This document shows positions 14,531 to 31,006 of a stretch of DNA of 64,000 nucleotides, piece by piece (within the stretch, counting starts at the first letter, position 1; every line of letters starts with the position of its first letter). The translations under genes and the position numbers were made by a program. Under the pieces are notes generated by a model, which did not search any database, was not told where the DNA came from, and was given only the letters and a program-made list of their open reading frames with translations. The DNA is taken from assembly GCA_903838295.1 (NCBI GenBank), contig CAILXX010000001.1, forward strand, positions 124,001-188,000, in the 5' to 3' direction. Origin of the DNA: an uncultured Actinomycetes bacterium (GTDB lineage Bacteria > Actinomycetota > Actinomycetes > Nanopelagicales > Nanopelagicaceae).

Positions 14531-16012
14531 ATGTCGAAAATTGAAAACACTGAATGGATTCCTGGCGATCAAGGTTTGGATCCGAATCGTTGGCGCGCGC
14601 TATTTGTTATTGCAATTGCATCCTTGATGATAGTTCTAGATGCCTCAATCATTAACCTGGCGTTACCAAGTGCTCAGAAAGCACTCCATATTTCGAATGC
14701 CAATAGACAGTGGGTAGTAACTGCATACTCACTCGCTTTCGGAAGCCTCCTACTCTTGGGTGGAAGAGTTGCAGATTACGTAGGAAGAAAAAAAATATTC
14801 ATTATTGGTCTTTTAGGATTCGCGTTCGCTTCGCTCCTTGGTGGTTTCGCCGCTAATCAAGGTGAGTTGTTTGCCATGCGCGGACTTCAAGGATTGTTTG
14901 GCGCACTACTTGCACCATCTTCGTTGTCGTTGATAAATGTAACTTTCACCGTTCCAAAAGAGCGCGCGCGAGCTTTCGGAGTTTATGGTGGAATTTCTGG
15001 TGGCGGTGCGGCATTGGGATTGATTTTGGGTGGCTTCTTAACCGAATACGCAAACTGGCGCTGGTGCCTCTTTGTCAACGCTCCGATCTCATTACTAGCC
15101 GTCGCTTTGGCAGTGCCATTCCTTCACGAATCGAAAGCCAAAGGGGATAATAAATACGACATACCTGGCGCCGTCACCGTCACCCTTGGCTTGGTAAGTC
15201 TCGTCTATGGTTTCAGCCAGGCAGCCAACAATGGCTGGTTAAACATCCACACCTATCCGTACTTCATCGTGGCGGCGATATTGCTCTCTGCCTTCTTTAT
15301 TATCGAAGCCAAGGTCAAGAGCCCATTGTTGCCTTTGAGAGTCCTAGCCGAGCGCAACCGTGCCGGTTCCTATATTGGGTCACTGCTGGTTGGTGTTGGC
15401 CTTTTCGCGATGTTCTTGTTCCTCAGTATCTACATGCAGGGGTTCTTGCACTACTCCCCTCTCAAATCTGGCTTTGCCTTCCTGCCGTTTACGGCCGGGA
15501 TCATTGTTGGCGCTGGAGTCGCCTCACAATTACTGCCAAAGATCGGACCGCGACCTTTAATGGTCTTTGGAATGCTCCTGGCAACGGTCGGAATCTTGCT
15601 CTTCTCCCGCCTAACCCCAACTTCTGGGTATACCTCTCACCTCCTTGCTCCGATGCTGATCATGAGCTTTGGTTGTGCCCTGTACTTCATTCCCAATTCG
15701 AGCACGGGGTTGCATGATGCCGGTGAACACGATGCCGGAGTTGCAAGCGCAACCCTAAATACCGCGCAACAAATTGGCGGTTCGCTGGGGGCAGCACTTC
15801 TCAACACGATCGCTATCTCCTCCGCGGCCGCATACGTTAAAGGTCACACCAACATGGGCGGCTCACTTCAGGTATTTGCCCAAGTCCACGGATTCACCAC
15901 CACCTTCAAGTGGGGCGCCGCCTTCCTGTTTAGCTGCGCCATCGTTTCAGCGTTGATGGTCAATGTCGGTAAAGACTCACTCGTCGAACATGATCTTGGC
16001 GGTGCTGCTTAA
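14531..16012 (+). CDS. MFS transporter, DHA2 (EmrB/QacA) family
   Basis: Proton-driven multidrug-type exporter with 14 predicted transmembrane segments, 493 residues. Motif A appears as GGRVADYVGRKK between segments 2 and 3, and LDASIINLALPSAQ in segment 1 is typical of the DHA2 group. The start ATG has a Shine-Dalgarno (AAGGG, 5-base spacing). No regulator gene is adjacent. The drug or metabolite exported is unknown. The upstream region is markedly A+T rich compared with the gene. Confidence 0.9.
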   Translation: MSKIENTEWIPGDQGLDPNRWRALFVIAIASLMIVLDASIINLALPSAQKALHISNANRQWVVTAYSLAFGSLLLLGGRVADYVGRKKIFIIGLLGFAFASLLGGFAANQGELFAMRGLQGLFGALLAPSSLSLINVTFTVPKERARAFGVYGGISGGGAALGLILGGFLTEYANWRWCLFVNAPISLLAVALAVPFLHESKAKGDNKYDIPGAVTVTLGLVSLVYGFSQAANNGWLNIHTYPYFIVAAILLSAFFIIEAKVKSPLLPLRVLAERNRAGSYIGSLLVGVGLFAMFLFLSIYMQGFLHYSPLKSGFAFLPFTAGIIVGAGVASQLLPKIGPRPLMVFGMLLATVGILLFSRLTPTSGYTSHLLAPMLIMSFGCALYFIPNSSTGLHDAGEHDAGVASATLNTAQQIGGSLGAALLNTIAISSAAAYVKGHTNMGGSLQVFAQVHGFTTTFKWGAAFLFSCAIVSALMVNVGKDSLVEHDLGGAA

Positions 16013-16029: not shown

Positions 16030-16077
16030 CTCCTTATTGCGTTAGATTGGTACTTGCAAATCATTCGCAATAAGGAG
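16030..16077 (+). promoter_or_regulatory. Perfect 12-bp inverted repeat that includes the Shine-Dalgarno of the Ni/Co transporter gene
   Basis: CTCCTTATTGCG (16030-16041) and CGCAATAAGGAG (16066-16077) are exact reverse complements, 24 bases apart. The second arm contains the AAGGAG ribosome-binding site, 4 bases before the ATG. If both arms are transcribed the site would be closed in a hairpin; if transcription starts between them the repeat is a DNA operator. Confidence 0.65.
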
Positions 16078-16081
16078 AATC

Positions 16082-17278
16082 ATGAACGCACCGGTCAAGG
16101 GGCAGAGCACAAAACGCCCTAGAAACCCGTTTGCATCACTCTCTCGAGATGAATCTCGACGACTAGGTGCGATGTTTGCAGTGATTTTCTTTCTCCTCTT
16201 TGGCGGCCTGATTCTTATGGGCATTGCCACTTCCAGCCATTACCGCCTTGCTGATGGAACTCTCTTCGGCTGGGGTACCGGATTTTTAGCGCTAACTCTT
16301 GGAATGCGTCACGCATTCGATGCCGACCATATTTCCGCTATCGACAATACAACCCGAAAATTGATGGCGGAGGGTCAACGGCCAATGGGGGTTGGTTTTT
16401 TCTTTTCACTCGGCCACTCATCGGTTGTAACCGCACTAGCAATCATTCTGAATTTTGGAATCAAATCACTGGGTGGACAAGTCAAAGATCCACATTCCGC
16501 ACTTCATCACTACACCGGCCTTATAGGTACTTCCATTAGCGGTGCATTCTTGGTCTTGATTGCGCTGCTCAACTTGGTCGTACTTATCTCTGTCGTCAGA
16601 GTATTTAAAGCAATGCGAAAGGGTTTGTACGACGAAGCAGAGTTGGAGAAACATCTAGATTCACGCGGATTCATGATGCGCTTTTTTGGTCCAATCGCAC
16701 GCCGAATTGATGCCAGTTGGAAAATGTATCCACTAGGCATCCTCTTTGGCCTGGGCTTTGATACGGCTACAGAAGTCGCGCTTCTTGTTCTTGCCGGATC
16801 TTCAGTCGTCGCGGGATTGCCTTGGTGGGCGATTCTCTCTTTGCCGATGCTTTTTGCAGGTGGAATGAGTCTTTTAGACACAATCGATGGATCGTTTATG
16901 AATTTCGCATATGGTTGGGCATTCTCCAAGCCGGTACGTAAGGTGTACTACAACATAGTTATAACCGGACTATCAGTAGTGGTTGCATTATTTATTGGCG
17001 GCCTTGAAGTAGCTCAAGTCTTGGCCCAACAACTCAATTTAAATGGTGGGTTCTGGAACTACGCACTAGCTTTTAATATTAATAAGGCAGGGTTCATCAT
17101 AGTTCTTATATTTGTGGCGGTATGGGCCTCGGCTCTATTGATTTGGCGTTTTGGCCGGATCGAAAATCGCTGGCATGATCATGCTCACAAAGCCCAAATG
17201 TTGCGCGGGGATATTCAAAATCACGCAGCTGCCGGTATAGAACTGGGCCCGATTACTGATGGGTTCACCATCGATTAG
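16082..17278 (+). CDS. HoxN/HupN/NixA (NiCoT) family nickel/cobalt transporter
   Basis: Membrane permease for Ni2+ or Co2+, 398 residues with about eight transmembrane segments. The diagnostic segment-II motif is seen in MRHAFDADHISAIDNTTR (H-x4-D-H), and the second signature in GLGFDTATEVALL. A His-containing segment near the C-terminus (WHDHAHK) may help metal capture. Metal choice cannot be told. No urease, hydrogenase or cobalamin genes are in the window; an agmatinase-family enzyme that might use a metal is 5 kb away. The Shine-Dalgarno is inside an inverted repeat, suggesting control of translation or promoter. Confidence 0.92.
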   Translation: MNAPVKGQSTKRPRNPFASLSRDESRRLGAMFAVIFFLLFGGLILMGIATSSHYRLADGTLFGWGTGFLALTLGMRHAFDADHISAIDNTTRKLMAEGQRPMGVGFFFSLGHSSVVTALAIILNFGIKSLGGQVKDPHSALHHYTGLIGTSISGAFLVLIALLNLVVLISVVRVFKAMRKGLYDEAELEKHLDSRGFMMRFFGPIARRIDASWKMYPLGILFGLGFDTATEVALLVLAGSSVVAGLPWWAILSLPMLFAGGMSLLDTIDGSFMNFAYGWAFSKPVRKVYYNIVITGLSVVVALFIGGLEVAQVLAQQLNLNGGFWNYALAFNINKAGFIIVLIFVAVWASALLIWRFGRIENRWHDHAHKAQMLRGDIQNHAAAGIELGPITDGFTID

Positions 17279-17288
17279 TAATCGGGCC
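17246..17288 (+). terminator. Hairpin overlapping the 3' end of the Ni/Co transporter gene
   Basis: GGCCCGATTACT (17246-17257) pairs perfectly with AGTAATCGGGCC (17277-17288); inside it, GATGG and CCATC pair around GTTCA. There is no clear U-run right after it, so it is either a weak terminator or a 3'-end stabiliser. The stem includes the last codons and the stop. Confidence 0.6.
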
Positions 17289-30113: not shown

Positions 30114-30141
30114 AATTACGCAACATATAAGTTGCGTAATT
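30114..30141. promoter_or_regulatory. 28-bp perfect palindrome, probable operator of the FTR1 gene
   Basis: AATTACGCAAC (30114-30124) and GTTGCGTAATT (30131-30141) are exact reverse complements around ATATAA. The right arm contains the probable -35 (TTGCGT, 30132-30137) of the FTR1 promoter. No U-run follows, so it is not a terminator of the RNase D gene. It matches neither the Fur nor the DtxR/IdeR consensus that I know. Confidence 0.65.
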
Positions 30142-30166: not shown

Positions 30167-31006
30167 ATGCTCAGCACCTTCCTCATATCGCTCCGAGAGG
30201 GGCTTGAGGCAGCCTTAATTATTGGAATTCTGGTCGCCTACTTGGTCCGCTCTGCGCGAACCAATGCACTCAAATATCTATGGGCTGGCGTGGCTACGGC
30301 TGGAATCTTGGCGCTTCTCTTCGGCGGTCTGCTCACTTATACATCCCTGAACTTGTCGGTGCGCGGAGAGCAACTTTTTGCTGGGACTACCTCTTTGGCT
30401 GCTGTTGTGTTGGTTACCGCCATGGTGTTCTGGATGAAGCGAAGTGCCCGAAGCATTGCTGGTCAGCTTCATGGAAAAGTAGATACCGCTTTAACCATGG
30501 GAAATTTTGCCTTAGCTGCGGTGGCATTTTTATCCGTTGGTCGGGAAGGGCTAGAAACTTCGCTCTTCTTATACGCAGATTTCAAGACAGTTAATCACGA
30601 TACCGCTCCACTAGCTGGACTGTTGTTGGGATTGGCATCCGCGGTAATTCTTGGAGTACTCCTTTACAAACGGAGTATCAAGATTAATCTAAGTAAGTTT
30701 TTTAGAGTCACGGGGTTGGCTCTGCTTGTGGTCGCAGCCGGCGTCTTGATACATGGTATCGGCGAACTTCAGAATAGAGGAAGTATCCCCGGATCGCACT
30801 CTTTCGCCTGGAACTTTAGCGCTGGCTCGGGCATATTGATTACGGTGCTGGATGGCACATTTGGAATTGCAAACGCGATGACCGTGCTGCAATTATCTAT
30901 CTATATTTTATATCTAGCTCTTACTCTGACCTGGTTTTTGAAGGCTCTACCTCTTTCAGCTCCAACTCCTTTAGAGTCAAAGACCACGTCACAAGCGAAC
31001 GCGTAA
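30167..31006 (+). CDS. FTR1 family iron permease (EfeU-like)
   Basis: High-affinity iron permease of 279 residues with seven likely transmembrane segments. Both iron-transport signatures are seen: [11 protein letters not shown] near the start and [11 protein letters not shown] near residue 126. The companion genes efeO and efeB are not adjacent, so it either works alone or with a distant partner. A palindromic operator covers its promoter, which suggests control by a metal- or stress-responsive repressor. The last 86 bases overlap the converging dxs gene. Confidence 0.9.

Follow-up and report, generated by a model that had tools for sequence, protein, structure and literature searches.

Our analysis points to a Nur-type repressor of the Fur family that very probably controls the NicT nickel transporter gene, its nickel-loaded form being predicted to block transcription from a conserved 17-bp palindrome at 16054-16070. 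Judged from the DNA, the region would mainly be an operator for nickel control of the Nur type, and the hairpin that overlaps it is specific to the lineage, a local addition. The features concerned are given below in the coordinates of the window, that is, the whole 64,000-nucleotide stretch of DNA that was analysed, except for the regulator gene, which lies elsewhere in the genome.

14531 to 16012, plus strand: co-directional MFS efflux-type transporter gene upstream of NicT (PF07690; TIGR00711 above cut-off), ending 41 nt before the operator
16030 to 16041, plus strand: left arm of the inverted repeat, CTCCTTATTGCG, whose CCTTATTGC core is conserved in the window's own lineage
16043 to 16048, plus strand: TAGATT, a -10-like hexamer lying between the arms of the repeat; TANNNT occurs near the operator in orthologues
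16054 to 16070, no strand assigned: Nur-box-like operator TTGCAA-ATCAT-TCGCAA, 11 of 12 consensus positions, the element conserved in orthologues
16066 to 16077, plus strand: right arm of the inverted repeat, CGCAATAAGGAG, made of an operator half-site plus the Shine-Dalgarno (SD) sequence AAGGAG
16082 to 17278, plus strand: gene for the NicT nickel transporter (NicO family), 398 aa (PF03824, E = 1.3e-97; NCBIfam NF052500 NicT, 488.8 bits, cut-off 450)
G000:C4:18835-19248: gene for a Nur-like Fur-family protein, the single FUR-family match in the genome

A protein search matched NicT in 100 of 151 family genomes and in 28 of 32 genus genomes, and 80 further NicT loci were taken from GTDB contigs. 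Ten of the loci L002-L128 had no search motif for the gene start and were dropped, L038-L040 being cut genes and L041-L047 a divergent NicO type that was treated apart; the 117 loci gave 107 distinct upstream regions, and the close set L002-L089 accounts for 68 of these. Because the operator was picked as the 17-mer with the highest score within 270 nt, the shuffled baseline was run by the same rule. Every one of the 68 distinct close orthologues carries the palindrome TTGCAA-N5-TTGCAA at 9/12 positions or better, and 64 carry it at 10/12 or better, with the shuffles reaching these levels in 13.8% and 2.2% of cases, respectively. A conserved spaced DNA site, which the sequence-only reading had proposed to look for upstream of orthologues, is present. 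Outside the window's own lineage, positions T1, G2, C3, G13, C14 and A15 are invariant (54/54), and the palindrome also precedes 7 of 7 divergent NicO genes of the genus (44 to 45% identical) and, at 10/12 or better, 11 of the 39 more distant loci L090-L128. The genome contains 28 near-consensus sites, and among the 12 examined the NicT site is the only one that does not lie inside another gene. The Nur box consensus of Streptomyces is given as tTGCaa-N5-ttGCAA in PMC3919588, and the NicT operator matches this published box at 11 of 12 positions.

Several observations concern the surroundings of such boxes. In the 54 other orthologues, CTAG is strongly conserved right after the box (positions +17 to +20; 44 to 53 of 54), and CTAC precedes it. 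In the divergent type L041-L047 the box lies only about 12 nt before the ATG, so that a near-leaderless mRNA is possible there. A candidate Nur site at the Sod_Ni locus was rejected, as the near match (G000:C4:236570) sits past the 3' end of the gene.

The genome also encodes a suitable regulator. Compared with solved Fur-family structures, the Nur-like protein matches PDB entry 3eyy best, with an E-value of 4e-44, 68 of 130 residues being identical, followed by a next best match at 8e-16 and weaker ones; 3eyy we take to be Nur of S. coelicolor. The Nur-like gene is followed by a GCV_T-domain, YgfZ-like gene, and S. coelicolor nur is likewise described as co-located with YgfZ in PMC4531530. 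According to PMC2464607, SCO4180 binds nickel and regulates an Fe-SOD together with nickel-uptake genes. Matches to the Nur-like protein occur in 83 of 83 family genomes (those with a completeness of 90% or more and a contamination of 5% or less); some of these matches may be to other Fur-family proteins, since there are weak E-values among them. As to residues for nickel binding, histidines are found at the positions aligned to His33, 70, 72, 88, 90 and 126 of 3eyy, and isoleucine replaces the aligned His86, so that the metal specificity of the protein is not certain. Literature searches of limited scope for the Nur box, for Nur in Nanopelagicales, for Nur with nickel transporters in actinobacteria and for the Nur histidines matched no paper with these terms.

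The hexamer TAGATT, placed by the sequence-only reading at 16043-16048, is indeed found there, and 64 of 68 orthologues have a TANNNT motif that begins 10 to 13 nt ahead of the operator, compared with 30 of 612 background windows (4.9%). At the site itself a scan for consensus promoters and terminators found neither, and no TTGACA-like hexamer is recognisable in the -35 region. With TAGATT as the -10 element, the usual spacing from -10 to start would put the start of transcription close to the left end of the operator, inside the loop of the repeat. The operator would overlap the predicted promoter, and normal NicT mRNA would lack the left arm, as its predicted start falls within the loop. The earlier suggestion of a DNA operator with a start in the loop holds in substance, except that the operator is the 17-bp palindrome and not the 12-bp repeat.

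That Nur binds here, which metal it senses, in which direction it regulates and where transcription starts are our inferences from these elements, as follows. When nickel is plentiful, nickel-loaded Nur would sit on the promoter start region and block transcription; when nickel is short, Nur would release the DNA and the transporter would be made. Imported nickel would probably supply the Ni superoxide dismutase, for which the genome carries a Sod_Ni gene; urease alpha was searched for in the genome and not found. This scenario resembles the Nur and Nur box system of Streptomyces coelicolor (sodF, nikABCDE) in the sequence of the box, in the Nur-like protein encoded beside a YgfZ-like gene and in having nickel uptake as a target. 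It differs in that S. coelicolor Nur targets NikABCDE, whereas the target here is a single-component NicT permease and the operator is a predicted one, and in that isoleucine stands at the His86 position. With this assignment, a regulator, a site and a metal that can be put to the test are proposed for the nickel transporter in a freshwater lineage that is known chiefly through metagenomes, and the transporter is linked with a Ni superoxide dismutase.

The 12-bp perfect inverted repeat that first drew attention to this region was confirmed. CGCAATAAGGAG is the exact reverse complement of CTCCTTATTGCG, a loop of 24 nt separates the arms, and the right arm does carry the ribosome-binding site, with its complement 24 bases upstream and the ATG at 16082. 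When the dinucleotides of the 69-nt intergenic stretch were shuffled 20,000 times, a perfect repeat of at least 12 bp arose in 2 shuffles, and the count was again 2 of 20,000 when the 17-bp operator was kept fixed and its flanks were shuffled. As so few shuffles reach such a length, the repeat is above chance and no plain accident of composition. The 64-kb window holds four perfect repeats of at least 12 bp (loops of up to 60), while 50 shuffled windows hold 0.26 on average. Repeat and operator have only CGCAA, in the right arm, in common. The left-arm columns -22 to -14 are kept in 10 to 14 of the 14 lineage members, and the 12-bp repeat would arise where the right half of the operator and the adjoining SD complement the lineage-conserved upstream block CCTTATTGCG. 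The repeat is a real feature, but it is neither the conserved element nor the sensor.

Perfect repeats of at least 10 bp within -45 to +57 of the operator occur in 14 of 14 lineage members versus 1 of 54 others. Those of the lineage are species-specific, 10 to 15 bp long and linked to the operator or the SD. In the window and in L008, a TTGCG block further upstream is the pairing partner of the right half-site and SD (over 12 and 10 bp, respectively); in L007, AAGGG of the SD pairs with an upstream CCCTT (10 bp); in L009, the same pairing extends over 9 bp and is accompanied by a 14-bp operator palindrome; and in the remaining 10 members the operator's own palindrome is lengthened to 12 to 15 bp. 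Across the 13 distinct closest rows of the alignment, the 12-bp stem is paired in 65% of cells with 8 double-changed cells, two of its pairs forming in only 1 and 3 rows, and the stem on the operator axis is paired in 81% with 14 double-changed cells. The covariation score of the former (0.123) was reached by 0 of 500 shuffles and that of the latter also lies above all 500, in a control that ignores kinship between rows. The operator alone does not explain why lineage operators sit in repeats of 10 to 15 bp with covarying arms.

All 14 lineage members have an MFS gene 37 to 60 nt upstream on the same strand. Co-directional upstream ORFs occur at 15 non-lineage loci, of which L072 and L087 were left out (ORF more than 300 nt away); none of the other 13 has this MFS gene as its neighbor, and 8 have a separate hairpin of 7 to 13 bp in the gap.

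One explanation, which we hold to be quite possible without expecting it, is that the repeats are by-products of replication. In this scenario, replication would switch template at the operator palindrome (quasipalindrome correction) and so copy the sequence beside one half-site to another half-site, and the repeat would have no function of its own. On two different axes, what lies to the right of the operator is the reverse complement of the sequence flanking a half-site upstream: the window and L008 use TTGCG 17 nt upstream, and 11 of 14 members use the operator's own left half. In the sister loci L034 and L035, a change in one arm is matched in the other. According to PMC8604942 and PMC7202029, template switching homogenises the arms of inverted repeats, and our putative case resembles such quasipalindrome sites in having arms that were made similar in different species. 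Against a mere by-product stand the conservation of the left block CCTTATTGC also in those lineage members whose repeats do not involve it and the association of the repeats with the MFS neighbor. Template switching accounts for the repeats about as well as the functional explanation that follows, and does so without needing a function.

That functional explanation, which we regard as rather doubtful, would add to the Nur operator without replacing it. RNA reading through from the MFS gene would fold the repeat into a hairpin that hides the SD, so that translation would proceed only from transcripts begun at the Nur-controlled promoter inside the loop; in other forms of the idea, the hairpin would end or stabilise the MFS transcript. 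The coincidence of upstream MFS gene and 10- to 15-bp repeat throughout the lineage fits this idea, as does the fact that no other hairpin of more than 7 bp lies between MFS end and operator in these 14 members; the separate hairpins at 8 of the 13 other co-directional loci also count in its favor. The predicted probability that the SD is unpaired is 0.00 in read-through RNA and 0.79 in promoter-started RNA for the window, 0.01 and 0.85 for L007, 0.00 and 0.76 for L009, 0.12 and 0.70 for L033 and, as a partial case, 0.00 and 0.40 for L008. Furthermore, the upstream block pairs with its own leader better than with foreign ones; across 13 loci, 16 of 5000 permutations did equally well, L048 being excluded both from this test and from the gene tree. 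The window and L008 are set apart by a double change, A-T to C-G, in the stem; in the gene tree the two do not group as sisters, though the fork with L008 has weak support (80/65).

Other results argue against the insulating hairpin. In the remaining 9 of 14 lineage members the SD is predicted not to be specially hidden, and the group mean for read-through RNA is 0.27, the means of the two other groups being 0.34 and 0.31. In L034 and L035, pairing with the own leader is on average worse than with foreign leaders, the tree shows no more than one or two joint changes of synteny and repeat, the window's own site has no terminator-like T run, and the lineage group was chosen after its repeats had been seen. 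The read-through and pairing results are compatible with an insulating hairpin but do not prove it. In L007 and L009, the SD AAGGG(G) is followed by a T run and preceded by the complementary CCCTT arm, which gives the look of an intrinsic terminator directly before the start codon.

An SD-hiding read-through hairpin with a promoter inside is familiar from gene e of phage T4. Our case is alike in that the SD is predicted to be sealed only in upstream transcripts and the promoter lies between the arms; it differs in that 4 to 5 of the 14 relatives show the sealing, by prediction, and in that the loop also holds a repressor site. The broader proposal that the freshwater acI lineage has rebuilt its operator species by species into a hairpin, acting as a Nur site in DNA and as a seal on NicT in MFS read-through RNA, appears unlikely to us. 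If the insulating hairpin were real, it would show that 50 bases can be enough for a streamlined genome to hold an operator, a promoter, an SD and a barrier to read-through.

A metal-sensing RNA switch that opens the 12-bp stem, as the sequence-only reading had suggested, is highly improbable. The intergenic stretch does fold stably as RNA (z = -2.94), the SD lies in an arm and the covariation score exceeds all shuffles, but the stem is missing in most orthologues, the predicted start falls in the loop, and the loop, consisting of promoter and operator, has no space for a separate aptamer. A repeat of at least 10 bp that pairs the SD region is present in 3 of 68 distinct orthologues (the window, L008 and L007), with 9 bp in L009. 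The switch fails by the refuting condition that the sequence-only reading had itself set, namely orthologues that keep the gene yet lack the complementary arm, and we likewise reject a metal riboswitch on the orthologues, with their partly paired stem. In the 64-kb window, no Rfam family reached its gathering score, metal riboswitches (NiCo, cobalamin) included.

The sharing of TTGCG/CGCAA between the repeat arms and a palindrome at the iron permease gene had also been noted.

30114 to 30141: near-perfect FTR1 palindrome AATTACGCAACATATAAGTTGCGTAATT, followed after 25 nt by the gene for the FTR1 iron permease (30167 to 31006)

We reject a link between the two, as the FTR1 palindrome still fails to match the Nur-type pattern when 2 mismatches are allowed and the common letters are hence no evidence of a common site. 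The FTR1 palindrome is not a Nur-type site, and the genome has a single Fur-family protein. At the other end of the transporter gene, a terminator-like 15-bp inverted repeat (93%), which has no clear T run, extends across the NicT stop codon at 17246-17288, between converging genes.
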